Assembly (NCBI GenBank): GCA_009746045.1
Contig: RPFO01000015.1
Span: forward strand, 590,029 to 654,028
Direction of reading: 5' to 3'
DNA length: 64,000 nucleotides
From: Mesostigma viride
Lineage: Eukaryota; Streptophyta; Mesostigmatophyceae; Mesostigmatales; Mesostigmataceae
Under the pieces are notes generated by a model, which made no database searches, was not told the origin of the DNA, and was given only the letters and a program-made list of their open reading frames with translations. A program made the translations under genes and the position numbers. The stretch's first letter is position 1. The number at the start of each line of letters is the position of its first letter. Shown here one piece after another: positions 17,126 to 58,513 of the stretch.

Positions 17126-17352
17126 ATTTTGTCAGTGCGTTTTGTCAAGTCGTGACATTGATATTTTGTGATAATTTCCTTGTTTTTGTCACAAAGATAA
17201 TCACAGAATATGCTGGTTTTATCACATGATTTGTCACGAAATGTCACAGAATATCACAGTTTTGTCACAAAAAATCACAAAGTGTCACATTTTGTCACAT
17301 CCACATCACAAAATGTCACGTGATATGTCACAAAATATCACAAAATGTCACA
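17126..17352. repeat. D2 right terminal/subterminal motif field
   Basis: Inverted counterpart of 9796-10070 built from TGTCACA / TATCACA variants, ending with the complement of the 21 bp terminal repeat. Confidence 0.75.
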
Positions 17353-20919: not shown

Positions 20920-20931
20920 CCCCCCCACCGA
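20920..20931 (-). other. G-rich run inside pol at a frame break, PPT-like
   Basis: On - the sequence GGTGGGGGGGAGGGG resembles the terminal polypurine tracts of LTR-2 and LTR-3 and is where the RNase H frame breaks from the integrase frame. It could be an extra internal plus-strand primer site, or just an error-prone homopolymer. Confidence 0.35.
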
Positions 20932-23924: not shown

Positions 23925-23997
23925 CTATCCATCTAACGTGAATCCTTTACGTTAACTCTATCTAAGGACCTGTCCAGGTTACCCCCGGCTGACAGGC

Positions 23998-25731: not shown

Positions 25732-25854
25732 TTTTAATTAAGTAAATGATTAGGAATCTAACTGAAAGCAACAAGGATAAAGGACAAGGCCTAATTTAAG
25801 GCAAGGAAAGAAAAGAAAAGCTTTTAGTGTCCTAAAAGAAGGAAACAATTTAAA

Positions 25855-26259: not shown

Positions 26260-26773
26260 GTTAACGCACCTGGTAGGTCTTGAGTAGTCAAATAAGGAGA
26301 ACGAGGAGAAGGCGACTTATCTCGGGTGTCTGAAACCGAACCAGATTGACGACGCACGCAGGGACGAGGTTTCCAGCGCCAGGTGGTCGTAAGTATCCGG
26401 TTTCAAGAATTCTGCGTCTGGCGATGGGTCGTCTAAATACAACGCAGGCAAGAATGCAGAAAAGTGTAATCTACGAGACGCTAGTCGTCTCTCTAACGTA
26501 GAACCAAAACCATCACCTATCTACGACAGTAGGCCACATGTCTCAAGAAAACAAAACGAGGAAAAGGAGCTATCTATAAAAGGATTTTCCGCTTCGAGCA
26601 GGTCTATCTTCTAGGCAGGGCGTGTCCCGAATCGGGCAGCACTACCCCCCAGCTTGCAGGCGACCCGCCCATTACCTGTCAAGTAGGTGTCGTCTTCATT
26701 TTCCCGGACGCGGAAGGGTTGATTCAATGACGTATGTTGCAGGGGATCGTCGTCTGGTTCTCTACCTAAAATT
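26260..26773 (-). other. LTR-3 leader region
   Basis: From the primer-binding site to the first ORF. On - a 209-codon frame starting with GTG inside the LTR (27240) runs through the PBS to 26611; it has no recognised domain and is probably not coding. Confidence 0.4.
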
Positions 26774-26785
26774 CCTCCGAGTCCA
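26774..26785 (-). promoter_or_regulatory. LTR-3 primer-binding site
   Basis: On - the sequence TGGACTCGGAGG starts two bases inside the 5' LTR, as expected for pairing with a tRNA 3' end. LTR-1 and LTR-2 have TGGTATCGGAGG. Confidence 0.75.
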
Positions 26786-26786
26786 T

Positions 26787-27357
26787 TGTTACGCCTCGGG
26801 TATCTACCACTACCTCTACCTCTACCTGGCCTGATGCTACCTAAACTAGTCAAGCCACCTCTAGTTAAACCCCTAGCGAAAGACGAACGAGACGATCCAG
26901 ATCTCAATGCATTAACGTAAGTATTGCTATAATACGCCATAAGCCATTTACACAACCCGTTTACTCCAGGAATAGAGGAAGGAAACACAACTACACTGCC
27001 GTGACCCAAGCCTATATGTGTTAATTCATTTAACACACGCCGAGTGCACACACGAGGGGTAGAACGTGCATAAATGGTCACCAACGGTCCAACACGCTCG
27101 GGCCGACATGGCCCTCGCCTACAGATGCACGCTGGTCCACTACATCTACAGATGCACGCTGGTCCACTACATTCTACCAAAGGATCAGGACCACTAGTAA
27201 AGTACGCGGCGCGGCGCCCCAAAGGCACCCAATGTACCACGGTACTGTTACGAGGACAATAGTGTCCCGGTAGGAGCTACACGTAAACCTAGGGACAACC
27301 GAGGCAAAAGACCTAATTTACGTCCGTAACTACAACGAATTGTTACGCGACGTAACA
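26787..27357 (-). repeat. LTR-3 5' LTR
   Basis: 571 bp, matching 8323-8893 with no difference seen by eye, followed by GCAAC (27358-27362). Confidence 0.93.
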
Positions 27358-27362
27358 GCAAC

Positions 27363-27456
27363 CTACTTTAGGCTACCTTGAATTATTCCTAATTCCGGCA
27401 AGAAGGGTCTTTCGCTACGTAGCTCAGGCTAGGTGTGTCTGGGCTGGGACGTAACA
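27363..27456 (+). repeat. LTR-2 5' LTR, right piece
   Basis: The last 94 bp of the LTR, matching 38416-38509. With 7834-8322 it gives exactly 583 bp, the length of the intact 3' LTR. Confidence 0.93.
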
Positions 27457-37911: not shown

Positions 37912-37926
37912 GTGGGGGGGGAGGAG
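37912..37926 (+). promoter_or_regulatory. LTR-2 polypurine tract
   Basis: GTGGGGGGGGAGGAG abuts the 3' LTR. The region 37707-37911 between the third ORF and this tract is non-coding. Confidence 0.8.
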
Positions 37927-38509
37927 TGTTACGTCCCGGCCCTTTAGGTCGGACGTAACAATGGAATAAATTACTAAGGCCTTGTGGCCGTTGTACTAAG
38001 TTTTATGGACATTGACTATTGTGTGAATTGGACTAGTTATTTTGGTCCTAGGTTGCCCTTTTAGGGGCCGGTGCGGTGGCGCCGCGCCAGTTCTGAGTCT
38101 ATCTGTAGTACTAGGCGTGGATCCTGTAGTTGAGGGTCGATGTCGGCCCGGATCCTACGTGGAATGATTGGCTTGGATTGGTCCAGGGAAATTGGCGTGT
38201 ATCTGCGCCGCAATCAACCTAGGTTAAATTGGTCCGAGGACGAGAGTCTCGTCCTCTTGGTTTAATGAATGATACGTGCGAATACGCCTACACATTGAGC
38301 CCGGGGCAATTATCCATTTGTAATTGGTGTTGCTAGCCAATATAAGTGTGTACTAATTAGCTTGGCATCAAGCCGTGATGCCAGATATCTCACGACTCAC
38401 GTCGTGAAGCGCAACCTACTTTAGGCTACCTTGAATTATTCCTAATTCCGGCAAGAAGGGTCTTTCGCTACGTAGCTCAGGCTAGGTGTGTCTGGGCTGG
38501 GACGTAACA
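37927..38509 (+). repeat. LTR-2 3' LTR, intact
   Basis: 583 bp, TG...CA, followed by the GTATG duplication. It differs from the split 5' LTR at two positions seen by eye (near 37990 and 38165). Confidence 0.95.
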
Positions 38510-39030: not shown

Positions 39031-39731
39031 TGTAACAACCAAATGTTACATCCAAAGTTTTCCTACTGGTGACCTTATTATGAGTTCTTGGGGACAATTA
39101 TTTGGATAGTTAGGAGGCTTCGACGTATGATTGATATTGGGCCTGCTGAGATCTGTCGAATTATTGTTCTACCCTCATTGGTCGTGGCCTGATCCACGTG
39201 GGGTGCTTTGCATGGTTTAGTTCAGCCAGTCATAGATTCTCTTTAAGACTGTCGTACCTGGTGGATCTGGTTCCAGGTCACGGAGATTCTGTAGTGCTGG
39301 CCTTGTGCTGTGTTGTGGATTCTGAGGACAGGATCTTACCTTGAGTGATCCTCACTTTTGATTGGTTCTTTCGGGTTAGGGTTGAGCCGACTCTGCGTGC
39401 ACGATGACTTTTATACTGTTTGTGGCGGCCGTGCATGTGTGCGTGTAAGAGAGCTAAAGCTATGGTGTAATTCAAGGGTTTCCTTGTTTCATCAATCAAA
39501 CAACCCTCGCTAAAAGTCAACTATAACTTCAACAGATAGTCGACTTGGATATAACATTGTCTGTTGTGTCTAACAAGGGTGGGGACTCATTCCCTTAACT
39601 GTTGAAGATCCATCTTCATTGCTTCTCTGGACGTGAAGTTATCTGTCGCGACTCCAACCCAGGTATAAAGATCTTTTCACATCAATGTTGAAACTGAGGC
39701 TGTTGCAAACACAACATTTTTAGTCGTTACA
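39031..39731 (+). repeat. LTR-1 5' LTR
   Basis: 701 bp, begins with the inverted repeat TGTAACA-accaaa-TGTTACA and ends GTTACA. It differs from the 3' LTR near 39369 and 39664. Confidence 0.95.
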
Positions 39732-39732
39732 T

Positions 39733-39744
39733 TGGTATCGGAGG
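39733..39744 (+). promoter_or_regulatory. LTR-1 primer-binding site
   Basis: TGGTATCGGAGG one base after the LTR, identical to LTR-2. Confidence 0.8.
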
Positions 39745-42700
39745 TTTCTACCTAGGTGTTGGTTGTCTAGATAGTATTAGTTCACGGTTAACAGTGGAAT
39801 TCATGCCCGACCCAGAGAGGGTACGTTATGCTGTGTGTTCGGACAGTTTTTAGAGTGTGACTCATCCTTATGTGACAGTCTTGCTCTGAGAGCTGCTTTG
39901 AGCTCACAAGTCTCTAACGTTTCCCCAGTCCGGCATGCGCGACCCATGGAGTGATGATTAACCTGGAGACACAACCACCGTTATCAAGTAAGAGAGTTGA
40001 AGATGCAACCACATCTTTAGCAGCTCAACGGACGACCGGTGATGAAAGGGTTTCATCATCTACTCCCAGACGTCAACTATTTGGATTCGTGCAATATTTC
40101 ATAGACAAGCGTCGTTATTTACGGGCTTTCGGCTGGCTGGCCGCATCGTGCTGAAGTCCGACCACCGCCCTGTCTGTCATGGCTGCTGACGCCGCAGTCT
40201 CCGCCTAGCTCCAAACAGGTCTTTATATATTAGCATTACGCAAGTGTTGCTACGTTTCGAGCAGGGCAATGCGGAGTGTTGGTACAGTAGCTCAGCAGGT
40301 CCGGCTCCAGAACCCTGCTAGGAGCTGTTCTTTTTTCCGGCAGGCTCTGTTTTCGGCCAGGCTGACATGGCGCTACGGGTTATGGCTGAGCCGACGCACT
40401 GTTGCTGCCGACGGCACCTATTACCCGGCTTCCGGGTTGCGGCTGCACGCACGACCACCACCGCGACCGCCTGACGACGTCGCTGTCTCAGGTTGTTGTT
40501 TTTTTTTTCCCGGTGCTGCTTTTCTTTGACGACATTGTTACGGTGTGGCTCAGGTTACACCTCGTGTCTTTTGAGGGTGGCTCCGGATGAGCGGACAGTA
40601 GGGATTCATGGCTGCCTTTTCACGCAAGGTTCCTTTTGCACTCACTTGACAATCTTTCAGGATCCTTTTCTTCCGTGCATGGGCAGCCTACCCTAGCTGT
40701 TTAAGGACTGTGGCACGTTCTTAATTCACGCGTCGCCAAACATTTGTTTCAGTTGTGGGGGAAACTCTTCCTTTTCTTGTTGAGCAACATGACAGTGGAG
40801 GCGTTCTAGGTGGAGCTTTGGTTCCTCCCACGTGGATGGTGGTTTGGTTTTGGTGGGGAGGAGAACAACGGCATCTGAGTTGTTCCCACTATCCTAGGAG
40901 TTGTCCAGAGTGGTCCAGATTGGGGGCAGCTACGTCTGATTACCCTGAGCAAATTTTTGCGGGGGAGTGGACATCCTGGCTGTCTGCAATGTAATTTCCA
41001 GACGGCATCACACATGCCAGGGCAGAACAACAGCAGGTACGGAATTTCCACTATCATACTTGGACAGCTGTGTCTAGTTACCCTGAGAAAATTTCTGCGG
41101 GGGAGTGGATATCCCAGGTCTGCCAAAGGGGTTGCCAGATGCTATCATGGAGGCATATGGCATGGTAGATGCCACCACATCAGGGGACATCGGGATACCT
41201 GCAGTGGGTTGTCCCAAAAGGGTATCACATGAGTTGGATATCCCAGGTCTGCCAAAGGGTTGCCAGATGCTATCATGGAGGCATATGGCATGGTAGATGC
41301 CACCACATCAGGGGACATCGGGATACCTGCAGTGGGTTGTCCCCAAAAGGGTATCACATGAGTTGGATATCCCAGGTCTGCCAAAGGGTTGCCAGATGCT
41401 ATCATGGAGGCATATGGCATGGTAGATGCCACCACATCAGGGGACATCGGGATACCTGCAGTGGGTTGTCCCCCAAAGGATATCACATGAGTTGGATATC
41501 CCAGGTCTGCCAAAGGGTTGCCAGATGCTATCATGGAGGCATATGGCATGGTAGATGCCACCACATCAGGGGACATCGGGATACCTGCAGTAGGTTGTCC
41601 CCCGGAGGGTATCACACGGGCACCCATGAGTTGCCAGGGGTCTCTTGCATGGGTTGCCCACTTGCCAGACGGTGTCCTTTGACACATGTTCCCATGCAGA
41701 GGGGGGGGACCACTTGCTTGACAACGTCCCCTTACAAGTGGGGTGTGGGTCACTTGCCAGTTGGGGCCCTTACCTGCGCCAGACCATTGTGACCACACAT
41801 TTACTTCTCCGAGGACATGATGGTCACCACTGCTTGTTGGCAGATGGCCCCTGTTGGGCCTAGGAGGTGCACTAGGACAGCAAGTATGGACACCAGGGCT
41901 GCTGTCATAGTTCTTATCTGTGAATATATCTGATATAGTTCTCAGATCAGAATTTTTGACACTGGGCAAGGCGCTTTTAGGCCCATTCTCTTGATTTTTG
42001 GGCAGTTGTGCTGGCTGTTGGACCACCTCAGGCCCTTGTCACTCCTTAGGCTTAGGAGTTCTGGCTACCTGGCACTTGGTAGTAGCCATGTTAGAGTCAG
42101 CTGTCTTGACAGGTTGGCAGTCTGTGGTTTGCCTACTAGGCAGTTTTTCTGAGTGCCATAGTGAAGGTTGCTGGCTCCTTCTTGCAGCTGATTGACGCTC
42201 AGTCCGGGAAGTTGACAGCATGTGGTCATTCTTCCAAGCAGCTTCTGGAGCCAGGCTCATTGGTGTCCGTTCCAGGCCTCCTTAAAGCAGCTTAGTCACT
42301 TCCCCATCGCGTGACCGGCGCAAGCAGCTAGTCTTGGTTGTCCAGTCAGGCAACCGCTGTGTTGACTACCCACATGTGGGGGTGGTCCAACGCTGATTGG
42401 GCGTGGTGGCAGTAGCCTATTGGGGACTTGAGGCCAGTGGGGGATTGGTAACTTGTCAATGGCGGACATGGTGCATGGAGGCGACGCTGGAGAGTATCCT
42501 GGTGGTTGACTAGTGCTGTTGGTGGTGACTGCAAGCACTCAATGGTGGAGACTTCATCAAGCACTGCATGGTGGCCGCTGGGACTCTGGTGACTTGGGGA
42601 CGCCCAAGTGACGCGTATCTGTAATGCTGGTGCCTGCTCCTGACGCTGTGTTGGGTCCTGCCTGCTGGTGGACATCAAGCCAGCCGTGTGCAGATGAGTA

Positions 42701-45700
42701 ACCTCCTACCCTTGCTTTGCCCTGCTATGGACTTATCCTTGCTTGCATGGTGCCAGGATGGCTTGTTGTCTTGATAGTACACCATCCGCCCTTGAGCTGA
42801 TTGCTTGCACAGCATGATGGTTGTATGAATAGGACTGCTTGCACGGGGGGTCTGGCATCATGTTTGCATGGGTAGGATGTCCTTGTGGGTTGGATGATGG
42901 GCGGGATCAACGGAGCTACAACTGTGGGGCCGGCTGGAATCTTTGGCATGACAGTGATGACAATGGTGCCCACTCCGTTGCCTCTTAATTGAGGAGTTGG
43001 ACTACTGGGTGCTGGGCGGGGGCTCACATGAGCTTAGAGGTGTGGGTTTGTTGAGGGACCCATTCAGCCCTTTACCACCCTTACAACCTGCCTCATATGC
43101 ATCAGTATCCGTGGTACACTGACATTAATACCATTTGGCAGTCTACGTGGTTCACGAACATGGATACTACCTTCCATGCTTTGACTAGGGGGACATTGTT
43201 CAGTCTACTTGCTAGGGCCCTGCCAAGCTGAGGGTGTATCTGTTTGATGACTGATGGCCTCATCCAGCATACCCTTATGCTGCCCTACTTGTGCAACCTT
43301 GTCTTGGGCTCCTTCGATCCTAATGCCCACATTACCTTGCATGGTAGTGCCACCTGGATGGTTGCGGGGAGTGATGTTGTTGCTGGGGGCCCTGCCAAGC
43401 TTGAGCACATCAGTTGCCTGATTGGTGATTGCTTTCAGTTTGCTCTCAAGCTGCCCTGGATGCAACTCCGTCTTGGACACTTTGCTGTAGTGCCCATCCC
43501 ATCTTTAGTCATGAGGTGCATAGGACGCCGTTATAGAGAGACCCTGCAGGCCACCAGTGGGTCAGTGGGCTGAGAGACAGGCCTCCCCCACCCTTCTCTA
43601 GTTGGCTGGGCCTCTGTCCTTATGCGTATTCCATGGCGTTTGTTCCTGCTAGGTTATGCTGTCAATCTTGGGAAGCTGATACCAGGATTATTACAGCTTA
43701 TTCTGAGCAGAAGGGTGGAATTACTAGGCATGCTGGTAGTCTCCAGTTTACCAGTTATGCTGAGGGGGATTTGTGTGGGGAGCAGGGCGTGCAGGGGATT
43801 GGGCTGCGTCTAAACCTTGCATGGGGGTAGCGTGTGCTACGCTTTATCAGTTGGGGCATACCGTTCATAATGCTGGTGAGGCATTACTGACCTTCTGCTA
43901 TCCCTATCAAGGCTGTGGATGGTTTCCCAGGCATCTTATGGAGAAATAGTGTGCCTTGGCTCATAAAAAGCCACTGGCTATGGGTTGAGTGTACTAGCTA
44001 CTAAGGAGATGTGGCTTTACCTCACTCTCACTCCTGTGGGTGCGACTGGAGGGGGGGGAAATTTTGTTCTGGTGGGGAGGAGATCTATGAGGATCATAGC
44101 GTGGAGACACCTTGGGATTTCAGTTCATCTTTTCTGGGTCTCCTCATAGATCCCTGACTAGATGGTATCCTGGTTTCGCTGGCCATCGGTGGGCTATTTT
44201 GGCTGTGCTTTGTTGCATCTCCCCAACCTGCTGACGGGTACCCACTGGAGACAACCCTGTCCACGGCCTCTCTTCATCATGGGCGTACTTCTGAGATAAC
44301 CTTGCTCTTCATGAGGCGACCCTGTTGGCGACGTCTTCCTGCTGGATTGCTCCTGTCTCTTGGTGACTGCACTTCCACCTGGGGCGCTGTTGACGTTTCC
44401 TCGTTCCAAGTTTGCGGGGACTGCCGGGTGTCAGCGGGCCTTGGACTTGCTGCAGCAGAAGCTCATGCCAGCCCTGTGTTAGGATTGAGCATTCTTGGCA
44501 TCCATCCAGCCTGCTATGACCTGATGAGCCTTGGACCCTGGCAGCCCAGTTAATTATGGGGGGTTGGCTGTATAGAGGGTTAGCCTTGCTACATGACACT
44601 ATGCTTCCTGCCCTGATCAAGCAGTGAGAGCTGTCAGTATTCATGGCATGGATCCCTGTGGATGACCCGTTATCCCTGGGAATGTCAGGCTTGTCTTTCA
44701 CCCGTGGACTCTAGTTGAGGGAGGGCGGTGTCCCAGAACCTGGAGTGGCCTCACCTTGTTTGGCTTAGGTGCCTTGATCCTGTTTACTCCTTTCTGGATT
44801 CATGTGGACTCATCGAATCCGACTGGGATCTGAGTTGAGTGGGATGGACTCTGGTGGGAGTTTGGTTGGACTAAGCTGAGATGACATCCAGATTTTGGTG
44901 ACCAGCTTCTGAGGATGGTTGAGGGGATCTGAGCCTGGATGGCACATGGAGAGTGACTTCTGTGTTGTACCCCTGACATATGGAGTTGTTCACCTAGGGC
45001 TTGATGCCTGGTATGATTAAGACACGTGGTGTATGTATGCACACCAGCCTGTATGAGAGTGGCTCCCCTTTTTGTGGCTCATCTGCTGCATAGGATGTAT
45101 GCATTGTCACCAGGACCTGAGTTTGATATGAGGCCTACTGAGGGGCAGGACATGCTAGCAGCCTTACCTGAGGCCTTGAAGGAGGCATTTACTCAGTTGC
45201 AGCCAGTGAGTATGGGAGAGGCTTCCTACCGGGAGCTGTTGGAGTTTCAGTTCAGAAGGGTGACTTTGATTTGGTTCCTTCTTTCTCCAGCTCAGCCAGA
45301 AGGTGTTTTCCTTTGGAGACTTCTACCTCTTTTGCAATCCCGGGTTGCCCAAGTACACTGTGGAACTTAGGGTCCGTCTGATGCCACTACGGGTGCTGGT
45401 GCCCTGATAGGTGCTAAGTGGTCTGTGGTCAAGACCTTTCTGCAGTTCTGGTGAGCGTACAGATCAGGGGTGAGCAGGCACAAGACGTCCTCTACTTGGG
45501 TGATGGACCCGGCGAGTCAGTCTGTGGTGCTCCTCTCCTGGGGCATGCTTTCGCTATGCTGTCCAGATGGTGGCAGGGGCTACTGAGACTTGCATGGTGC
45601 TGCAGGTCAGCAGGAACTGGCCAGAGTTGGCCCACGTGGTGGAGCAGTTTCCCATGTGTGGACCCAATGGCAAGGTGGCCTGAATGGGGATTGGTATAGC

Positions 45701-45944
45701 CTGTGAGGAACAGGGCTGAGAAGGAAAGGGGGCTTTGGATTGTGGTGTGAGGGGGGGGGATTCCAGGATGGATGATGGGGGGGCTCCATTCCAGTTCTGA
45801 TGTTCCAGTCCAGAGTTCCAGAATTCCAGAATGATGACGGGATGACTTCCCGTATTGCTGTGATTATCTGGGCTTGTAGTGGATAAGGATGTGACTTGTC
45901 TTCTTTAAGCACCTGTGACTAGATGTTTATGCGATAGGAGGCCC
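39745..45944 (+). other. LTR-1 interior without gag-pol
   Basis: Frames are short and broken on both strands. Some (43244-43573, 45026-45370) look mildly coding (for example RPTEGQDMLAALPEALKEAF at about 45130), but no domain is recognised and no protease, RT or integrase motif is present. It may include captured or decayed host sequence. A 123 bp tandem repeat lies at 41104-41610. Confidence 0.6.
41104..41610. repeat. 123 bp tandem repeat, four copies, in LTR-1
   Basis: Each copy contains GGATATCCCAGGTCTGCCAA, then GCATATGGCATGGTAG, then GGGATACCTGCAGT. Copies are nearly identical and differ mainly by one base in C/A runs. Confidence 0.92.
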
Positions 45945-45947
45945 TGG

Positions 45948-45978
45948 GAGGGGATTCATAAGTGTTTGCTCAATTTCA
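45948..45978 (+). repeat. D1 left terminal inverted repeat
   Basis: 31 bp, first bases GAGGGGATTCATAAGTG, perfect inverted match to 57640-57670. Confidence 0.93.
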
Positions 45979-46029
45979 CAAGTCTTCAAATGAGTAAAAA
46001 AAAAATCTTTCAGATCTGAGGGTACCTAA

Positions 46030-47100
46030 AGCTGGACTGTTGCAGGCAGCATGTAGACCATGAAAATAGACCACCCACAAAAATTGGGCTCATTCTGAGC
46101 TCAAATGGTGACATGTGACAGCATACATGTGCAGTTTTTCGTCATTTTCCCCCTTTACTTACATGAAACAAATATGAATAGTGGACAAATGAACTCATTT
46201 CAGGCTGGATTTTTGCAGGCAGCATGTAGACCATGAAAATAGACCACCCACAAAAATTGGGCTCATTCTGAGCTCAAATGGTGACATGTGACAGCATACA
46301 TGTGCAGTTTTTCGTCATTTTCCCCCTTTTCTTACATGAAACAAATATGAATAGTGAACAAATGAACTCATATCAGGCTGGATTCTTGCAGGCAGCATTT
46401 ATACCATGAAAATAGACCACCCACAAAAATTGGGCTCATTCTGAGCTCAAATGGTGACATGTGACAGCATACAATGATGTGCAGTTTTTCGTCATTTTCC
46501 CCCTTTTCTTACATGAAACAAATATGAATAGTGGACAAATGAACTCATTTCAGGCTGGATTCTTGCAGGCAGCATGTAGACCATGAAAATAGACCACCCA
46601 CAAAAATTGGGCTCATTCTGAGCTCAAATGGTGACATGTGACAGCATACATGTGCAGTTTTTCGTCATTTTCCCCCTTTTCTTACATGAAACAAATATGA
46701 ATAGTGAACAAATGAACTTATATCAGGCTGGATTCTTGCAGGCAGCATTTATACCATAAAAATAGACCACCCACAAAAATTGGGCTCATTCTGAGCTCAA
46801 ATGGTGACATGTGACAGCATACATGTGCAGTTTTTCGTCATTTTCCCCCTTTTCTTACATGAAACAAATATGAATAGTGAACAAATGAACTCATTTCAGG
46901 CTGGATTCTTGCAGGCAGCATGTAGACCATGAAAATAGACCACCCACAAAAATTGGGCTCATTCTGAGCTCAAATGGTGACATGTGACAGCATACATGTG
47001 CAGTTTTTCGTGATTTTCTCGGTTAACTTCCATGAAACAAATATGAATAGTGAACAAATGAACTCATTTCAGGCTGGATTCTTGCAGGCAGCATTTAGAA
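46030..47100 (+). repeat. D1 left subterminal array of about 174 bp units
   Basis: Six full units and a partial one, each beginning near GGCTGGATTCTTGCAGGCAG (about 46031, 46202, 46376, 46552, 46726, 46898 and 47073) and containing AAAATTGGGCTCATTCTGAG and GTGCAGTTTTTCGTCATTTT. Confidence 0.93.
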
Positions 47101-47351
47101 AATGCACATTGCCAGCTTTTACGTCATATCCCATTGAAAAAAAATAGATGAGCCATGAGCCATGAAACCTGTTCACCCAAATATGGTTTTATCCCATTTG
47201 ATATATGTTCTACCAATTGTAAGGACATGTAATAAACCTATGAACCAAGGTCATAAGACACGGAATGTGTTGATCACAAGGCTGCTAGCCGCAAAGCATG
47301 CACCGAGAAGGTAGGGCAGCCATGAAAAATTAAAAGCCACATGCGGCAAGG
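47101..47351. other. D1 3' flank of the DUF7869 gene
   Basis: AT-rich, no frame. On - a TTTATTACAT polyadenylation-like sequence lies near 47230. Confidence 0.4.
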
Positions 47352-50300
47352 CTAGTCATCAGAGTCTGAATCAGGAATGATGGGAGGCCGGCGCTTGTGG
47401 CGCGGGGTGGCCTTGGCTTGCTTCATTGCCGTGGACCGCTGGGCGACCTGCTTGCGAATGCACTCAGTAATGTCCGCCTTCCCTCGCGCAATGCTCGCAG
47501 GTGGAAGATTTGGCAACTGCACACCGGGGCATGCGCAAAGCGCAGCCTGCACCTCATCAAATCCCACTATTTCATCGTCGCCATCGGAGTATAGCAGATG
47601 GGCCATGTCGTGCTCCTTACTAAAGGCCGTCACATGGCCATGATACCGCTTCTCCCCCGAGTTGGGGCCCGAAAATATCTTGCATACCAGGGTCCCCACC
47701 AACCATTCCGGCTCTGGCACGTCCATGACACGCGATTTGAAAAGTCCCACCGCCGTCTTCTCCGCCATCGCCGGGGTTCCGTACCCATCCCACTGAATCC
47801 AGTCGAGCGAGAGCCCAACAACAGCATCCTTCGTGTGCTGCGTCAATGTGCCACTGCTTGTCAAGCCCACCCGGCGCACCTTGCCCCCCCCGCACGCCAC
47901 GAAGACAAGACGATTGTGCTTGCCTTCACTGAAAATGTGTGGGTACCTGTCCTTGTGGCGGCGGGCAGGGGGAAATGGGCCGAGCTCGGGCTGAAGGGCG
48001 AAAACCGCGTTGTGTACGAGTGCGAGCCGTAGCACTCAAGTTCAACCACGGCGTCTGGCGATAAGTCGCCGGTGATGTTGCGGGCCACCGCGTACAGCAA
48101 AGGAGTGAAAGGCATTAGGGGGCTGCACAGAAGATCGCAGCCGTCCTTTAGCCCCGGATGTTGACACATCACCGGCTTCCCCACCTCGATGCCCTCCCAT
48201 GCTGCAGCGGATGCTTGCTTTAGCGCGACCGCTGCATCCTCTGCGCGTCGCACAGCAGCGGGCCGCCCCGCGTGGACAACGGGGTCAACCAGCGGCACGA
48301 AGCAACGAGCACCCTCCAATGCTAGACGCGTTTCCGCATCCAGGTCAGTGGTGGCACTCGGGCCTGCTCCGCTCTGATTGGGTCGCCGCAGCGCCTGGAT
48401 TTCCGCTCTAGTTGGCCACTTGGGGGGCTGCCATTCAGCAGGCACGGTGGCCACACCAGTTGGAACAAGAGGCCAGAAGGCCTCCCACTTGTCCATGCCC
48501 TCCTTCTTTAAATACTGCGCGTATCCTCCAGCCATCAAGCCCTTGATCTTTCTCTGGATTCCTGGCATCTTGCCCTCCAGGAAGTCCAAATCCAAGCCTG
48601 CTAGCGAGGGCACCGTCCCAAGTGCGCGCTCCACCTTCTCCCCGTCCACCACCAATACCCCATACAACTCCTTGTCGTCGTGTTCCCTAGTCCACAGCGG
48701 GTGCTCGCCGTCGGCGCCGTCCGGCCTCCACTCGAGCAAGTCATGGAATTTATACCACAAGTAGACTTCCCCGTCCGCAGCACGCCGCAACATCAGATGG
48801 TGAACCTTGCAGGACTTTGTGTTTTTTTCTGCCTCCCCCGTCAGCGGGTTTTCCACCCAATCCGTTGACATCGCCCAGTTCGCGAGCTCCGGCTCTTTCA
48901 AGAGCATGAGCCACGCAGCGATGTTGTAGGCGGCGCCCATGGTCCAGCAGACCGTGCCTGCGGGCGTGGTGCGACCCAGGTCCGACGTGTCCGAACGCCG
49001 AAACGCGGCAACGACCGCTTCCCCATACTCCTCCACTGTGTGCCACACCGCACCCTTCAGTGCGTTGGCCCCCAGCTTGAAGTACCCCCAAACTTGTCCG
49101 AATTTCTGATCGATGTCGAGATGGGTGTGCCCCCTTGGCAGGCGATGAATCTCGACACGCGCGAACAAGCCCGACGCCACCAGCCACCACGCCCACAGCA
49201 GCACCGTGTCGTTGCGATTTTCAGATCCCCCGTCGAGTTGCAGGTGGAGGGTATCAGGCATCGGCAGCCCCTTCCCCTCCCAAGGCTTGGCCTTGATGAG
49301 CTCACAGAGCACCCACATGAGCAGCGTGACGGTGATGCCCCCCGACTGATCTGCCACAGCCACCCAGGGGAGCACCTGGAAGAAACAAGTTTTCCACCCG
49401 TGGGCTGCGACACAAAAGAGAGAGAAACGAAACAATGTGTTTATTCCGTTTTCCCAACCCTCGTGTTTCGCGCACATGTGCGGCACGTATGACTTGTTGC
49501 TGTCGATCTTATCGCACGCAAGGGATATGATCTGCCAATCCACACCCTCACGGCGGCGCTTCCAAAACTCGCGCCGCGCAACTCGCACGGCAGCCAGGTG
49601 GCGATTCCGCTCCAGGGTGATGCGCTCCAGCTGCTCCCGATTGGTTCCCGCTGCCGCACGGAGGGTACGGTACAGCACACAGTGCCCACAAATCCCCACA
49701 TTGCGCCGGTTTTTCTGCATCTCTATTTTCAAGCCGTCGCTGTATTTGCCCTCGCAGACGTCGTTCCACAGAATGGTGAAGGCCGTGTACTTGTACATCA
49801 TTTTCGACTCCGTTGGGTTGCCCCATACCGCGATGCAATCCATACAATACTGCTGCTCCCACAGGTTTTTCAAGTTCTCTTTCTCTAGCAGCAATACATT
49901 GTCGCGTGTGGGATCGCGGCAGCCATTCGTCTGCACGTATGCCGCAATCCAGTCCACAGCCCATTCTTTACGCTGTTGCACAACACTCGGCTCGCGTTTG
50001 CCAGCGCCTGCATTGCACAAGGCACACATCACATGGACAAGTTTACCAACAGAGGCATGAAGAATATAAGTTATCCATGCAGGGTCATCCTCAACATGCA
50101 CACGCGAGAGCAACATCAGGTATTAAACATAGTAATGAAACAACAATAAATGTGCCTGGCAAGCCAAAAAAAGGCGGCGGGCTCCGCTTTGCCTTTGCCG
50201 TTTTCCAGCGCCCCCCGCGAGGGGAAAAATTTTTTTTGGCTTGCCAGGCACAGTAGCATTTCTCATACAGATTTCTCAAAACAGGGCAGCAATAAGGTGA

Positions 50301-50972
50301 ATTGCATCCAAAAGGAGGAAGGGCAGAACGATAGCATGTCTTCTTACCGTGAGAGATTCCTGGTATTTCACACCCCACGGCGTCGAGGGTGTCCGCCTCC
50401 CAGACTTCGTGATCAAGCTTGCAGGCCGCCTTGGCGACGGCCATGTATGTCCTCCACGTGGAGTGGGCGATGCCAAACATGCGTCGTATCGCATGGTGGC
50501 ACCCCTCCACGTGGTGCCGTCGCCCATGCACCAGCACCTCCGCCACAACCGGCACCGAGCATTCGTATTTCCCATGGTGTCGGCCAAACTCTGGCAAGGT
50601 GACTGTCACATGCTCCAGGCCGGCAGCGACAAAGAGCCCCACCACCAGCTGCCGGCGTTCATTGCAGGACAGCCCCCAATATTTGCTACGTGCCGCCTCC
50701 CATATTACAAAGGATGACAGGGGGCTCTGGGGATCTTGTATGCATCTATGTTTACAACACCGCCCGCGCAGCTCTGCCGCGATCACATGGGCATTACAGG
50801 CGTATTTCAGTACTGTTGTTGCTGATGATTTGAATCCTGCTGTGCGGCACCCACCACCTACATCATCATCGTCATCACTGCCGATATCCAGATGGTCGAC
50901 CTGATCGTCATGATCAACGTCTACTACGACGTTGTAGGCCTCGTACAAGGGGAATCGACGCTGCCTGGGCAT
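47352..50972 (-). CDS. DUF7869-type integrase/transposase-like protein with C-terminal Tudor-like domain
   Basis: Model on -: exon 50972-50348 from ATG, donor GTAAG; intron 50347-50008; exon 50007-47352 after GTGCAATGCAG. The phase fits, giving about 1093 residues if one indel in the G8 run (47884-47891) is allowed. The N-terminus is acidic (DIGSDDDDD). The middle has Cys pairs (CMDC, CGHC), then HLQLDGGSENRN and LPRGHTHLDIDQKFG. These are the Asp and His-x-His-x-Asp-x-Asp signatures of the DUF7869 family, found in many eukaryotic mobile elements. After the frame break comes a Tudor-like segment (LVGTLVCKIFSGPNSGEKRY, then YSDGDDEIVGFDEV) and an acidic Asp/Ser tail. Tudor folds bind methylated histones, so chromatin targeting is plausible but inferred. 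It is divergent from the gene at 52078. The transposase role is inferred from family and context. Confidence 0.8.
50151..50252. mobile_element. 102 bp hairpin/MITE-like insertion in the intron of the DUF7869 gene
   Basis: 22 bp perfect inverted ends (TGTGCCTGGCAAGCC plus A7, and its complement) bound a GC-rich centre. It lies wholly in intron 50008-50347. One half of it (T-run plus GGCTTGCCAGGCACA) also occurs at 3126-3151 beside the second GGGCT array. No clear TSD. Confidence 0.6.
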
Positions 50973-50990
50973 CAATTCCCCTTGTACGAG
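50940..50990. other. 16 bp inverted repeat around the DUF7869 gene start codon
   Basis: Arms CTCGTACAAGGGGAAT (50940-50955) and its complement (50975-50990) with a 19-base loop that contains the ATG complement at 50970-50972. In RNA it would form a stem enclosing the start codon; alternatively it is a dyad binding site. Confidence 0.6.
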
Positions 50991-51056
50991 ACAGGCCCCT
51001 GGTGGTCGGGACGTAAGAGCAGCAACACCAAAACGGCAACGAACATTCTCCAGCAA

Positions 51057-52077
51057 GCTGCCTCATCCCCGGCTAAAACAGGGGGCCTGGGGCAAGGGTC
51101 TTCTTCAATTTCCAACGACATCCAATTCCAGCGCCCCCCACCATATTCGTCACGGCGCCTCCAATAGTCTGAACCTTCACGACCGCCCATGGCAGCTCTC
51201 GCAATTATGTTGGCACGCCTCTCCCAATTATGCCTCTCCTGCCTCGTTTGTGGCTCGATCTTCCGCTGACTCAGCGCGGCGCATGAGAGTTCCATTCAGA
51301 ATTCATTCACCGACCCCCAACACTGACCGTACAGCCAGAACAAACGAAAAGGTCTTGCATTCTCAATGAAAATGGGCTGTAACGGCATTCCATTGAGAAT
51401 TCCATTCAGAACTCATTCACCGACCCCCAACACTGACCGTACAGCCTGAACTGGGCTGAACATGCGAAAAGGACTTGCATTCTCAATGAAAATGGGCTGT
51501 TGCGGCATTCCATTGAGAATTCCATTGAGAACCCATTCACCGACCCCCAACACTGACCGTACAGCCTGAACTGGGCTGAACATGCGAAAAGGACTTGCAT
51601 TCTCAATGAAAATGGGCTGTTGCGGCATTCCATTGAGAATTCCATTGAGAACCCATTCACCGACCCCCAACACTGACCGTACAGCCTGAACTGGGCTGAA
51701 CATGCAAAAAGGACTTGCATTCTCAATGAAAATGGGCTGTTGCGGCATTCCATTGAGAATTCCATTCAGAACTCATTCACCGACCCCCAACACTGACCGT
51801 ACAACCTGAACTGGGCTGAACATGCGAGAAACGAAGGACCATCCAAAAAGTGAAAAAATTCTGAAACAGTCCGCGGCGTTGTCCGAGCCTCGCATGCAAA
51901 TGGCATTTGAATGAACAAAGCGCAGTGACCGTCGTCTTTGCGCGCGCGCGGGTGGAGGTGCGTGCACTAGTCTGCCAAGAAAACACTGCAGGGCATGCGC
52001 GCACGAACACAACGAGAACGTGCCAGCCTATGACGTCGTCGACGATGAAGTTCGTCGTCCGCTAAATTGTAGGGGAT
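51057..52077. promoter_or_regulatory. Divergent intergenic region between the two D1 genes
   Basis: About 1.1 kb separates the two start codons (50972 and 52078). About half of it is a 120 bp tandem repeat (see next entry). No TATA box is obvious. Shared regulation of both genes is inferred from geometry. Confidence 0.5.
51297..51830. repeat. 120 bp tandem repeat, about 4.5 copies, between divergent genes
   Basis: Each unit has CGACCCCCAACACTGACCGT (starts 51311, 51421, 51541, 51661 and 51781), then CATTCTCAATGAAAATGGGC and GAGAATTCCATT. Periods are 110 then 120, 120, 120. A 119-codon frame through it is an artefact because 120 is a multiple of 3. Confidence 0.92.
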
Positions 52078-53669
52078 ATGGCGGAGTATCTGAGTGAAAC
52101 AGAGAGGCTGCGGGCAGAACGGCTGTGTTATGGACAAACTGCGGGTGTTTGCCTCTTAGGCCATGCCGATGGGGCAGACAACAACTGTCGGGGCCGAAAT
52201 GGTGAAAGCTGCAACCTATTTGCTCACGCGATCTGCGTCAAGGCAATTGACGGGAATAAAAATGGGGAGGAGTGGTGGTGCCCAGGATGCCGTGACGTGG
52301 ACCCCGGTGGCGTGAAAGTTGCCAATCTCCAAGCTTCGGGTTCGAACGGTCATCATGAGCTCGGCACTCCCCCCCCGGCCCTGGGGTCCGCTGCTAACAA
52401 GTTTCTTCCAAACACCGACAAAGACCGGCGCATGTTGATGGATGATTCCGGATGCAAGGCCGTTGACGACTTCGAGAAAGCACATCACAAGGCACCCGGC
52501 AGGAAGCTAGTGTTTCCTGGTACTACCGACGGCCATGCCACCCAGGAATCAGATGCACGCAGCAAGGAGGACGTGCCGTCAATTCCGGCTGATGCCAGCA
52601 AGGGCGTTCAATCGAGTGATGAAAAGTCGACCGCGGGGGTGGTGGACGATGACCTACCTGCAGGCGGTGCAGAACATGGAGACCACGCTAACCTTGACGA
52701 GGCCCAGCCGGCAGCAGCTGCCATGCCTGGCAGCGCTAGCAGTGCGACACGGCGCGCCAGCTTTGATGCAGCGAACCTCAAGTCCGGCGACCAACTTGCG
52801 TCGGAAGCTCCAGCGTTTATGACGTGGCTTCCCTCCCCTGATGGCCCCTCCCCTGGCCATCTCCGTGTTGGACAATTGGTTCGCGTCGCCATCCCTCATA
52901 AGGAGTTTGGCAAACCCCTCTTCCCCAAGGTAATTCTTGGGTTTCATTTGTACCCTGGAGGAGCGGGGATCTTCCTGGCCAACACACCGTACGGAAGAAA
53001 GGACATGATGGAAAAGGCTGTCAAGAGCGGGGGGACCAAGCTGACGCCTGATCCCCCAGCATATTACGTGAACTGGGCTCAACAATCCCAGGCCCTTCGG
53101 CCCGTCTTCATGGAGGATGATGCTGTCGCCACGGTTGGCGACCTGACCGTCCTGCGCGACCGGCTAGATGCTGTGTGCGAATACCTGCCAAACGCAGGTC
53201 TGGCGGCGCTTCGAGCCACATCTGGTGGCTTGATCTACACAAACAAAGGCGAGGCCGTCAAGTTTGACTTGGTAAAGGACTTCCCAAAGCGCAAGGCACC
53301 ACCACCAGCTGCCACGGCACCACCACCAGCTGCCACTTCCAGCCAACCTCGCGCTAACAAAAGCGTGCCAGAGGCGCAGCTGGTTCACCCCACACGCTCC
53401 AAGCGTGTGAAGGCGGACAGCCAGCAGCCAACTGCAGAGCCCAAGTGCGGTGTTCAAGTGCCAGTCAAGCCGAGCACCGAAGCCAGGGCGAGTGGTGTTC
53501 GCAACAAGAGGCCTCCCTCGAGCTCGGTATATGTACGCTGCGATGACTCGGGTGAAGAACGCGACTCGGACCAAGAAGTAGCGAAGCTACGCCGCACTGT
53601 CGCGGACCAGCACAAGCAGTACAACGCGGAGGTTGCGCAGCTGCAACGCAAGATGCAGGAGATGGAACA

Positions 53670-53708
<39 letters not shown>

Positions 53709-53855
53709 CCAACAGCAGCAGCAGCAGCTCCTACAGCAGCTGCAGCAGCAGCAGCAAATGCAGCAGCAGCAGCAGCCTTTGCAACAGCAGCAGCAGGAGC
53801 CGCCGCCGCAGCAGCTGCTGCAGCCACAGCAGCTGCTGCAGCTCTCACAGCTCCT

Positions 53856-53894
<39 letters not shown>

Positions 53895-54616
53895 GCAGCC
53901 GGCGCCGCCGCCACAGCAGCAGCAGCTGCTGCAGCAGCTCCTACAGCAGCTGCAGCAGCAGCCGCCGCCGCCGCACCAGCAACTACAGCAGCTGCTGCAG
54001 CCGCCGATGCAGCAACAGCTGCTACAGCAGCAGCATCCGCAGCAGCTGGTGCTGCAGCAACTGCAGCAGCTGCTGCAACAACAGCAACACTATCGCCTCC
54101 CACTCCCTGCCGCTACAACGACTACACGAGTAATTGACGGGGACGCCGAAGTAGCGCCCCTCGCGCAAGTGCAGCAAATGCTGGCTCAGATGCAACTTCC
54201 CCAGGTATGTCCTTTCCTATTGTGATTTATTTGAATCAACATAATCTGCCTTTGTGAATAGTTTGTTGGAGTATATAGGATATATTTGTTTGGTTTGTTG
54301 ATTATTCCTTCATATACCGTGCCCTAAGGCATGCTGGCTTGATGTGCTGGGTGGTGGTGTGCAGGTTGGTGGACGCCGGCTCCCATCCATTGACCCCTTC
54401 TCTGGCACGGTCTCTGTGGCGGTGGCTGCGCTCAACTCAATTGCGACACTGGCCATGTCTGGGAACACGACGCCCGTGCCACGATGGCGCCCGGTGACCA
54501 CGTGGGTGCCATCATCCGTGTCAGCTCCGCCCAACTATGGTGTCGGCCGCCCATTGCAGCAGTGGCCAAACTTCTCCAATGACTGGACTATGAGCAATGA
54601 CTGGTTTACCAGCTAA
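52078..54616 (+). CDS. PHD-like zinc finger, polyglutamine, coiled-coil protein (792 residues)
   Basis: Exons 52078-54204 and 54365-54616, intron GTATGT...GTGCAG, phase 0, stop at 54614-54616. Residues 23-72 contain Cys/His ligands ending in FAHAICV and EWWCPGC, a PHD-like C4HC3 pattern. Residues about 240-400 form a globular part (LRVGQLVRVAIPHKEFGKPL, then GFHLYPGGAGIFLAN) that I do not recognise. A basic linker is followed by a helical segment (AKLRRTVADQHKQYNAEVAQ) that runs into about 140 residues of Gln with Pro and Leu (53664-54090). Exon 2 encodes a Ser/Thr/Pro/Trp-rich tail. PHD fingers usually read histone tails, so this may be the chromatin-targeting or accessory partner of the DUF7869 protein, with which it shares a divergent promoter region. 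Confidence 0.7.
53664..54090 (+). repeat. CAG-rich polyglutamine-coding repeat
   Basis: Mostly CAG and CAA codons, with CTG/CCG interruptions that make Leu and Pro. The complementary frame gives a polyalanine artefact. Confidence 0.92.
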
Positions 54617-54641
54617 GCTTATACTAGTTTCTGATGTATTA

Positions 54642-56539
54642 TTAAGGGGAGGTGGCACCCCAAAAACCTTAAAAATTGAACTAAGGTAATAACACTTGAA
54701 ATTCATTTGCACAATGCTGAAATATGATTGCGGGCACTAAATAACATCTCTTGTGAGTTGTCCATGCACTTGTTGGGGGTACTACCCCCAAGTATACGCC
54801 AATATTGCGCTATAAATAGAAAAAGACGCTAATTAGGGCTGGGTATGCCCCAGCCAATGCACACATTTGTTGGCAACCAAAAATCAACCATTTGTAGTTC
54901 CCTGAGTGTGTAGCTTGCTGAGCTATTTACATCATGGAAATGGCAAAACCTTGAACAGTTATTAATTTTCCCGCAAAACAGGTCTTTTTTTACCGGACAT
55001 TGGGAATAAACATATCATAAACACTTCAGATAAGGCCACAAAATCAAGCGAAAATCCGGCTAACAGGGGGACAGCAGTGGTCCAAGTCCCAGGTCATTCC
55101 GACAAGTCTAGCTCAAGTTATAAGGTTTTGCGTGCTAAAACCTGAACATACGCTAAATGAGGTTTTTCTGTGTGTAAGGCCACCTAGACATCATGTTTTC
55201 CATCCAAGAAGCCAAAAAACATGCCCAACTCGATCACACAACATAAGAAAAGGCTAGGCACCTCATCTGCCCTCCCCTGCGCCCTCAGCATGGCCAGCCT
55301 TGCCAGCGTGCGCATAGCAACACCATCGCTAGGCATACACGCACCAAGAGAGCATACACTAAGCTCAGCCCAAGGTTACCATGTAAATTTATGCCAAGAA
55401 CTCAGCAAGTATACGTGTAAAAACCTTAGAAATACTGCCCAAGCAATAGAGGCAACTGCAGCCTGCAAACTTGGCAGCAAATCATACATGTTGTCTGCCA
55501 AGCATTCACATCCTATCCAGCTTGCCTTGCTGCACACATAGCAGGGAAGTCTTAACGGTTATAGCTCAAGGAAAGCAATGGAAACACCTATCTAATGCAA
55601 TGCCACTCATGCAGTATGGCCAGCAAAAGAACCACTCTCACCTTCCTTTCCAATAGGGCACTTTGCTAAGAAGCTGATGCCAGCTTGTTAGCCTCTAGGC
55701 ACATGCCGGATGTCGTTCTAAAACAGGCGTGTCAGATCCGGCACATAACAAAGCGTCTGAGCAAGCTCACGTCCAAAGGATTATGGAAAACAAATGTCAA
55801 CACACTACCAACAACTTGACCTCGGCGCATTTAGCATGCCAGCCACAAGCTACACGAAATTGTACGAAATAGCTAGGAATCTGACGATGCAACCGAAAGA
55901 AATGGAGCGCTTCCTGCAGGGAAACTGCCCGAAAAAAAGGCGAAAGGCCGACGTTAATGCACCTGCCTGCGTGGAAATGTTTCATGCATAAACTGGCACG
56001 CAAGCTCGAACAATAAAAGACATCATCCATCGATCAGGCGAACAAGGAAGGTGCGCCTTCCGTGAATACGTCGAAGGCGACATGCGCAGGCCTGCGTAGG
56101 TTCTTACCTTGAATGCCGGAAATGTAAAAGAAACCGGGAAGCTTCGGCACAAACTCGACAACACCATTAAGTTAGCTTCATAATCGCTCTTTAGAGGCTA
56201 CGTTGCCTCACAACAATAGCTGCCGTAAACCTGCATTAAATTTCATGATCCGCAAGAGAAATTATATCCTGGACCCCCGCGCCCGTAGCCGTTCGAGAAA
56301 TTAGCGATATTGCAAACCGTAAACTTTCCGCCACGAAATGAGGTCATCAACTAATCTTCTGCGAAATTCAATCATTTTTTCTAGCTGTTTACGTGCCATA
56401 TCGATTAATATTGCATAAAGGCATGCCGCCATGGCCACTTCCGCGAGGGTTGAGCGGTCCGGGCACACATTATACACCGTACGGACGGTACCGCGAATTT
56501 TTTGGCGCGGAAAATATTCGGCACGCCACGTCCCCTTAA
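54642..56539. mobile_element. TTAA-flanked non-autonomous element inside D1 (54646-56535)
   Basis: TTAA GGGGAGGTGGC at the left and GCCACGTCCCC TTAA at the right: the ends match as inverted repeats at 10 of 11 positions, with TTAA duplications at 54642-54645 and 56536-56539. Inside, a CTATAAATAG sequence lies about 165 bp from the left end, as in the second TTAA element (59728-61805), and a 9 bp inverted repeat TTGGGGGTA lies at 54773-54791. There is no transposase frame; the longest frames (such as 55221-55541) have no recognisable content. TTAA targets are typical of piggyBac and Kolobok elements. Confidence 0.5.
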
Positions 56540-56859
56540 GTGAGCCAGTGCTTCTAGTAGAAGGTGATGTCTTAGTACTTATTGTATATTCATGCTGGAC
56601 TGAAAGAGTACGTGGCGTGCCACTGGCAGCCGAGACATGTGCCTTGTCGATGGCCTGGGTTGCTCTTGTGCCATCCCATTTCATCTCAGATTGAATCATG
56701 AAGTTTCATGATTCAGTTGATGCTTGCAAGTTTCCAGCCTGACATGATCGATCGAGTTCATTTGGTCGCACAAAAATGTTTTATTCAAGAGAACAGTGGC
56801 AATGGCATCAAACTGCATTGTTTTCCTTTCATTTGTCACCTTTTGAGCTGTAAACAGTC
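56540..56859. other. D1 interior next to the right array, nothing recognised
   Basis: A 132-codon frame on - (56699-56301) crosses the TTAA border and is not supported as a gene. Confidence 0.4.
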
Positions 56860-57570
56860 TATTTTCATGGTATAAATGCTGCCTGCAAGAATCCAGCCTG
56901 ATATGAGTTCATTTGTTCACTATTCATATTTGTTTCATGTAAGAAAAGGGGGAAAATGACGAAAAACTGCACATGTATGCTGTCACATGTCACCATTTGA
57001 GCTCAGAATGAGCCCAATTTTTGTGGGTGGTCTATTTTCATGGTATAAATGCTGCCTGCAAGAATCCAGCCTGAAATGAGTTCATTTGTTCACTATTCAT
57101 ATTTGTTTCATGTAAGAAAAGGGGGAAAATGACGAAAAACTGCACATGTATGCTGTCACATGTCACCATTTGAGCTCAAAATGAGCCCAATTTTTGTGGG
57201 TGGTCTATTTTCATGGTCTAGATGCTGCCTGCAAGAACCCAGCCTGATATGAGTTCATTTGTCCACTGTTCATATTTGTTTCATGTAAGAAAAGGGGGAA
57301 AATGACGAAAAACTGCACATGTATGCTGTCACATGTCACCATTTGAGCTCAGAATGAGCCCAATTTTTGTGGGTGGTCTATTTTCATGGTATAAATGCTG
57401 CCTGCAAGAATCCAGCCTGATATGAGTTCATTTGTTCACTATTCATATTTGTTTCATGTAAGAAAAGGGGGAAAATGACGAAAAACTGCACATGTATGCT
57501 GTCACATGTCACCATTTGAGCTCAGAATGAGCCCAATTTTTGTGGGTGGTCTATTTTCATGGTCTGAAGG
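56860..57570 (-). repeat. D1 right subterminal array of about 174 bp units
   Basis: Four units, the reverse complement of the left array (46030-47100), with the same core segments. The innermost unit starts within diverged sequence near 56860. Confidence 0.93.
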
Positions 57571-57639
57571 CTGGATGACCCCTGCTTTATTGACAAATAT
57601 AAGGATTTAATCACATGTGGAAAAATTGAGTAAAATTTA

Positions 57640-57670
57640 TGAAATTGAGCAAACACTTATGAATCCCCTC
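57640..57670 (-). repeat. D1 right terminal inverted repeat
   Basis: Perfect 31 bp inverted match to 45948-45978, followed by TGG. Confidence 0.93.
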
Positions 57671-57800
57671 TGGCTTCAGGGATGTAAAAACCCATCTGCT
57701 TGTCCCAAGAGATGGTGGACTTCCTGTTTATTGTTGTGTTGTTCTTGTGTAGGTTGTTGTTTATTCTTCTTGGCTTCTAGGAACTGGGAGTTCCTGTCTT

Positions 57801-57812
57801 GAGGGGGAGATA
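57801..57812 (+). promoter_or_regulatory. LTR-1 polypurine tract
   Basis: GAGGGGGAGATA directly before the 3' LTR. Confidence 0.75.
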
Positions 57813-58513
57813 TGTAACAACCAAATGTTACATCCAAAGTTTTCCTACTGGTGACCTTATTATGAGTTCTTGGGGACAATTATTTGGATAGTTAGGAGGC
57901 TTCGACGTATGATTGATATTGGGCCTGCTGAGATCTGTCGAATTATTGTTCTACCCTCATTGGTCGTGGCCTGATCCACGTGGGGTGCTTTGCATGGTTT
58001 AGTTCAGCCAGTCATAGATTCTCTTTAAGACTGTCGTACCTGGTGGATCTGGTTCCAGGTCACGGAGATTCTGTAGTGCTGGCCTTGTGCTGTGTTGTGG
58101 ATTCTGAGGACAGGATCTTACCTTGAGTGATCCTCACTTTTGATTGGTTTTTTCGGGTTAGGGTTGAGCCGACTCTGCGTGCACGATGACTTTTATACTG
58201 TTTGTGGCGGCCGTGCATGTGTGCGTGTAAGAGAGCTAAAGCTATGGTGTAATTCAAGGGTTTCCTTGTTTCATCAATCAAACAACCCTCGCTAAAAGTC
58301 AACTATAACTTCAACAGATAGTCGACTTGGATATAACATTGTCTGTTGTGTCTAACAAGGGTGGGGACTCATTCCCTTAACTGTTGAAGATCCATCTTCA
58401 TTGCTTCTCTGGACGTGAAGTTATCTGTCGCGACTCCAACCCAAGTATAAAGATCTTTTCACATCAATGTTGAAACTGAGGCTGTTGCAAACACAACATT
58501 TTTAGTCGTTACA
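57813..58513 (+). repeat. LTR-1 3' LTR
   Basis: 701 bp, followed by the GTGCT duplication at 58514-58518. Confidence 0.95.

Follow-up and report, generated by a model that had tools for sequence, protein, structure and literature searches.

A terminal-inverted-repeat element with a DUF7869 gene in Mesostigma viride as a probable cut-and-paste transposon

We analyzed a 64,000-nucleotide stretch of the Mesostigma viride genome (GenBank assembly GCA_009746045.1, contig RPFO01000015.1, positions 590,029 to 654,028 of the forward strand; hereafter the window), in which an 11,723-bp unit bounded by terminal inverted repeats (TIRs) carries a gene for a protein with the DUF7869 domain (PF25273). We consider this unit to be a copy of a recently active family of cut-and-paste TIR transposons, family A, with the DUF7869 protein as its transposase, and give this reading a probability of about 0.8. 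It rests on ends that can be placed to the base, target-site duplications (TSDs) and an empty site, near-identical copies elsewhere in the assembly (439.9 Mb, 2243 contigs), and a second DUF7869-bearing family, E, whose ends follow the same plan. The features of the window element are collected in Table 1.

The two TIRs of the window element are perfect over their 31 bases, with divergence setting in at base 32, and no third match to them occurs within the window with up to eight mismatches allowed. A reading made from the sequence only, before the present analysis, had described perfect 31-bp TIRs flanked by TGG on both sides, and repeats and flanks read as it stated. It had also placed both borders inside a long terminal repeat (LTR) sequence, which is true of the host LTR retroelement as a whole but not of the LTR itself: the insertion lies in the internal part of the retroelement, 142 bp before the 3′ LTR (LTRs of 701 bp, 99.7% identical). 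As an empty-site query we joined both flanks with a single TGG (162 bases, junction after base 86). Of 494 candidates, 40 were scored, and every one of these crosses the junction: 39 span all 162 bases at 97–100% identity (three at 100%) and the remaining one matches over bases 1–156 at 99%. These matches show that the target is an LTR family of high copy number and that the borders are exact, in full agreement with the ends first proposed.

The description of the unit as a complete 11.7-kb transposon needs two amendments. The unit is exactly bounded, but 1890 bp of it is a nested insert next to TTAA on either side, with imperfect terminal repeats (GGGGAGGTGGC and GGGGACGTGGC), and the DUF7869 frame is broken. 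A further copy, L045 (9397 bp), has an uninterrupted site where the window copy carries the insert. Subtracting the insert and one TTAA from 11,723 bp gives a native length of ∼9.8 kb, and the length of family A is about 9.4–10 kb. A search of the element against Rfam returned no match.

The exact 31-bp TIR occurs 151 times genome-wide (77 + 74) and the reversed control pattern not once, so the TIR is not a product of chance. The left end has at least 40 copies, the window's included, at 99–100% identity over 174 bases (40 of 431 candidates scored), and the right end at least 40 copies that are 100% identical over 110 bases (170 candidates, of which 40 were scored). Facing ends were paired by eye from the match lists, and both ends could be read at 24 loci with 24 different flank pairs. 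A flush 3-bp direct repeat is present at 22 of these 24 loci, compared with 8 of 552 swapped flank pairs; a flush repeat of four or more bases is present at none, and the 22 TSD triplets have no fixed position. Other copies with the same ends, 3-bp TSDs, and empty sites, the three checks suggested with the sequence-only reading, were thus all found. TIRs, a TSD of fixed length, and an empty site are among the marks of a cut-and-paste TIR transposon, and family A has all three; a cut-and-paste rather than a copying mechanism is what we infer. That the borders are an artefact of assembly or of segmental duplication has a negligible probability. One contig, C1199, does have the left flank of C1040 but the right flank of C469, and because its flanks match two different loci some contigs are misjoined or are haplotigs; the 24 different flank pairs, the 3-bp TSDs, and the empty sites nevertheless refute this explanation for the family.

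The shortest of the paired loci spans 4.9 kb (C667) and the longest 32.6 kb (C108, TSD AAG). Three long TIR-bounded units with a 3-bp TSD were observed at C108:875-33513 (32.6 kb), C113:16153-32733 (16.6 kb), and C1391:4487242-4502274 (15.0 kb).

The presence of a DUF7869-type gene, already noticed in the sequence-only reading, is upheld by a match of the window protein to PF25273 well above the Pfam cut-off (E = 2.3e-14, 53.9 bits, cut-off 26). The predicted first exon has no Pfam match, and the protein has no NCBIfam match. The frame is interrupted once, at a G run near 47884-47891 that differs between copies. We also considered a 27-nt intron as the cause of this frame change and rejected it: by eye the family E protein runs through the region, and this continuation together with the variable G run makes a homopolymer break likelier than an intron. 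The C-terminal DUF7869 part (47352-48035, minus strand) has a weak Tudor-like match (PF21743, E = 4.8e-4), which is below the cut-off.

A genome search with the 659-residue DUF7869 exon (the best 67 of 817 candidates were scored, to which the copy and group counts given here and below refer) found at least 16 places, the window included, that match at least 653 of the 659 residues at 99–100% identity, 15 of them without an internal stop. The open frame is 753 codons long in 12 of these 16 near-full copies and 923 codons long at C1813, a copy that we take, from its reading frame, as an unbroken one. Over 3721 gapless bases, the DUF7869 genes of L045 and the window element are 99.97% identical. 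From such near-identical gene copies we conclude that family A is recently active. Two DUF7869 genes (C1518:49430-51127, L039; C1107:4554405-4561793) contain an in-frame expansion of a 66-bp repeat and have open frames of 4243 and 2726 codons, respectively. Outside this genome, three scans of viral and prokaryotic contigs gave 0, 41, and 128 pattern matches, with no relative by tblastn, and no mention of “DUF7869” or “PF25273” was found in the literature searched.

The same search returned four further multi-copy DUF7869 groups at 36–39% identity to the A exon, with 10 matches in B, 4 in C, 7 in D, and 15 at one score plus variants in E, some of these matches being haplotigs of one insertion. 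A damaged relative nearer to A (47–58% identity, two internal stops) lies at C1469:954075-955948, and fragments are listed as well. We aligned 10 proteins (A, three B, two C, two D, and two E). Identity to A is 35–40% and identity between groups 33–40%, except for B vs. D (56–61%), and all 10 proteins, from all five groups, match PF25273 (E up to 1, best 4.2e-15). Invariant in all 10 are D165, D168, D258, E262, H287, H293, H295, D297, and D299, as well as D382, H402, H403, H136, and C109 (exon-2 numbering). The motifs follow the order DKxD ... QxDGGSEN ... GHxHxDxDQxFG, which would fit an RNase H core of the DD(D/E) type whose second and third acids are 39 or 41 residues apart. Catalysis by DUF7869 is what we infer from these residues.

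Group E is itself a family of bounded elements. Homology around one E gene (10-kb stretch L059; 7 of 3092 candidates scored) stops at base 9204–9208 in three copies and earlier in others, and the terminal bases of L059 from 9172 have an inverted match at the far end of four copies. The resulting 33-bp TIR, GAGCTGGTGGCCATGAGTTTGCTCAGTTGGCCA, has the plan GAG-N13-GTTTGCTCARTT, with spacing equal to that of the family A TIR. Non-A TIRs of this plan number 127 genome-wide (62 + 65), with none in the reversed control, and 95 of the 100 matches listed have the form GAGYYGGTGGCC. E-type ends were read at 12 loci; C1468 shares both flanks of C631 and C1199 shares the left flank of C1040, which leaves 10 distinct insertions. 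A flush 3-bp TSD is present at 8 of the 10, and at least two (C1391 at 0.38 Mb, C224 at 3.20 Mb) have no DUF7869 gene among the matches listed. The E protein is 38–40% identical to that of A. Upstream of its gene is a divergent gene encoding a zinc finger (PF23663, E = 2.6e-6, 27.7 bits, cut-off 27), and the intergenic region is rich in inverted repeats. Given the matching terminal plan and the 3-bp TSDs of family E, the likeliest role of DUF7869 is as core of a cut-and-paste transposase. The expectation that a bounded DUF7869 unit would help to define its superfamily is strengthened by this second family, with the same TIR plan and mostly 3-bp TSDs.

We scanned 11 family A elements for a 47-base core of the array unit (the window element, L042, L045, L046, L048, L049, L052, L053, L054, L057, and L058), leaving out the two-piece copies L040/41, L043/44, and L055/56. 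All 11 have the repeat unit at both ends in opposite orientation, 4–11 units per side, and the arrays begin 129–131 bases from one end. The inverted arrays reported earlier are therefore real, with a unit of 173 bp rather than 174 bp. Most of the DUF7869 gene is absent by DNA match in 9 of the 11 elements, and because both arrays are kept in elements without it, the arrays are probably needed in cis. Subterminal repeats are also a feature of CACTA elements.

Movement of copies that lack most of the DUF7869 gene would equally be expected if DUF7869 were an accessory or passenger and all elements were non-autonomous, moved in trans by another transposase. Giant families with non-transposase genes only are described for Ectocarpus in passages of PMC12477816, and the catalytic role of DUF7869 is itself read from protein sequence. 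We nevertheless regard such a passenger role as quite improbable. DUF7869 is the only protein found common to A and E, two families that match in their ends and in their usual TSD length, and it has an invariant acidic set, whereas the second proteins of the two families are not alignable and have no nuclease match above the cut-off (that of A has a sub-threshold match to UvrD_C).

The transposase reading has to be weighed against several observations. Two of the 24 family A loci lack a TSD: at C446 (4.47–4.48 Mb) the left TIR carries a mismatch, and at C2 (∼4.79 Mb) two TIRs abut head to head, a locus counted once with two pairings tried. In family E, the insertions at C224 (3.20 Mb) and C631 have flush repeats of four and two bases, respectively, and the swapped-flank control is not negligible (6/90). 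No TIR of the A/E plan lies near the genes of groups B, C, and D among the TIR matches listed, and the A second protein, compared with one E exon, has no sequence similarity to it and could not be aligned. The DUF7869 protein has no PDB profile match, and its single-sequence AlphaFold model is poor (predicted local distance difference test, pLDDT, of 35). All of these count against the reading that we favor. At the C2 locus (L087, around 4797760) the second of the abutting TIRs is without its first bases, an arrangement resembling that from insertion into an end or from aberrant transposition.

Among known systems, CACTA/EnSpm elements resemble family A in their 3-bp TSD (within a range of 2–5 bp), in the combination of a transposase with a second protein, and in their length (described in parts of PMC4158355, PMC12730594, and PMC12477816); in the first of these sources CACTA makes 3-bp TSDs and its second protein supports transposition. 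The element might then belong, as a highly diverged member, to the CACTA/EnSpm-Plavaka-Lanisha (CMCT) assemblage rather than to a separate superfamily, which we consider unlikely, though it is the likeliest of the alternatives. Families A and E end in GAG..CTC, whereas the termini of CMCT elements are 5′-CA..TG-3′ in most cases (PMC12730594, in the passages available). The CMCT pattern of C(2)C and H(3-4)H between the second D and the last E is not conserved in the 10 aligned proteins: no conserved Cys pair follows D258, and the His residues conserved in 10 of 10 are H287, H293, H295, H402, and H403. Finally, the Pfam matches of the 10 proteins at E up to 1 include no known family of transposases.

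This last result bears also on Zator and other superfamilies with 3-bp TSDs (Zator/ISAzo13, IS3-like), to which we think it highly unlikely that the element belongs. The D-G-G-x-E-N motif resembles the integrase D-x-G-x-E/F motif, a point in favor of such a relationship, but a model for ISAzo13 is present in Pfam, and neither Pfam nor NCBIfam gave a match to a known transposase family. The 3-bp TSDs of families A and E are shared with Zator, ISAzo13, and most IS3 members (PMC10045372, in part); the two-gene layout with array ends is a difference from Zator and ISAzo13. The PHIS group (Harbinger, Nuwa) likewise has short TSDs, 3 bp in many, and Nuwa has a transposase with a DNA-binding partner (as described in sections of PMC12730594). 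The Harbinger/PHIS target consensus is TNA or ANT (PMC12477816, in part), whereas the 22 TSDs of family A have no such consensus; there was no profile match, and the second protein, as the potential partner, has no Myb/SANT match. Large elements with accessory genes, green algae included, occur in Kyakuja-Dileera-Zisupton (KDZ) (parts of PMC12477816), but Zisupton and Dileera make 8-bp TSDs (parts of PMC12730594), a length not found here (0 of 24 A loci with four or more flush bases), and there was no profile match here either. The name of the Pfam entry PF25273 (DUF7869) gives no function; here the domain sits in bounded mobile units.

On the transposase reading, DUF7869 would be a recombinase of the RNase-H-like DD(D/E) type that probably relies on D165 or D168, D258, and D297 or D299. 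It would recognize GAG-N13-GTTTGCTCARTT termini, and the element would be excised and then inserted, with a stagger of 3 bp, into nearly any sequence. The two-protein CACTA systems offer an analogy, on which the zinc-finger/Gln-rich second protein would most likely be an accessory DNA-binding factor, with the 173-bp subterminal arrays as its likely cis-acting sites in family A.

The family is new and probably the type example of a superfamily without a name. We put slightly better than even odds on DUF7869 representing an unnamed cut-and-paste transposase superfamily with a signature of its own in ends, TSD, core, and partner gene: GAG..CTC termini with an internal GTTTGCTCA box, a 3-bp TSD without target consensus, a D..D..D core with GHxHxDxDQ at the third acid, and a fast-evolving divergent zinc-finger partner. 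A new superfamily is likely, although Repbase, whose superfamily list is given in PMC4455052 (available in part), may hold such elements under another name. DUF7869, a domain without an assigned function, gains a concrete and testable role, now that its ends, TSD, and partner gene are described together with near-identical copies and a second family. According to the sequence-only reading, DUF7869 proteins are common in eukaryotic genomes, and if our reading is true, many such “hypothetical” genes would be transposases or domesticated ones. Confirmation would allow genome projects to class DUF7869 genes with mobile elements and not with the genes of the host, would make it possible to assign orphan TIR elements that have GAG ends and a 3-bp TSD, and would supply the green lineage with a candidate for an active transposon.

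The second gene, divergent from the DUF7869 gene, had been called PHD-like. The divergent gene stands, but the PHD assignment does not, its match being below the Pfam cut-off (E = 0.094, 13.2 of 24 bits); the sub-threshold UvrD_C match lies in the Gln-rich part. The ∼120-bp repeat region between the two genes is a putative shared promoter region. In a genome search with the A second protein, in which the best 87 of 266 candidates were scored, relatives had 60–100% identity, including a group near 78%, and none among the matches listed adjoins a gene of group B, C, D, or E. An open second gene of 633 codons, with no DUF7869 gene among the matches listed, is present at C335:5480158, C446:675872, C1690:2416483, and C1735:1841188. 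The idea that L040 and L045 differ in the 5′ part of the second gene was rejected, since L045, when compared directly, is 98.5% identical over 1255 bases and the apparent gap was an effect of the overlap filter on repeats.

Table 1 Features of the window element and its insertion site (window coordinates)
Feature	Position	Strand	Remarks
Host LTR retroelement	39031-58513	.	LTRs 39031-39731 and 57813-58513; TSD GTGCT (5 bp)
Left TSD, TGG	45945-45947	.	Empty site with one TGG
Transposon copy, family A	45948-57670 (11,723 bp)		Ends placed to the base by TIRs and TSD
Left TIR, 31 bp, GAGGGGATTCATAAGTGTTTGCTCAATTTCA	45948-45978	+	
Left subterminal tandem array, 173-bp unit	46031-47118 (about)	+	6 units by core match
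DUF7869 gene, main exon	47352-50007	-	PF25273 match within 48027-50005
DUF7869 gene, predicted intron	50008-50347	-	GTAAGA...TGCAG
DUF7869 gene, predicted first exon	50348-50972	-	ATG at 50972
∼120-bp tandem repeats separating the two divergent genes	51284-51831	.	
Second gene, exon 1	52078-54204	+	Cys/His zinc-finger-like N-terminus, Gln-rich C-terminal part
Second gene, predicted exon 2	54365-54616	+	Phase-0 intron GTATGT...GTGCAG, 54205-54364
Nested insert, 1890 bp, not native to the element	54646-56535		TTAA at 54642-54645 / 56536-56539
Right subterminal tandem array, 173-bp unit	56857-57573 (about)	-	4 units, inverted relative to left array
Right TIR, 31 bp	57640-57670	-	
Right TSD, TGG	57671-57673	.	

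The window contains several layers of nested elements, the transposon included. At 7833-38509, an inner LTR retroelement (8323-27357, LTRs of 571 bp, 100% identical, TSD GCAAC) sits in the 5′ LTR of another element (7833-8322 + 27358-27456), whose 3′ LTR is at 37926-38509.

Two observations concern the plastid sequences of the assembly. The rbcL product (180 residues) is of green type, scoring 386 bits against 1wdd and 382 against 1gk8, which we take to be from rice and Chlamydomonas, vs. 254 against 1bwv and 243 against 5mz2, presumably from Galdieria and a diatom. The gene is present twice in opposite orientation on the 205-kb contig C602 (at 9413 and 87810), which suggests a large plastid inverted repeat.

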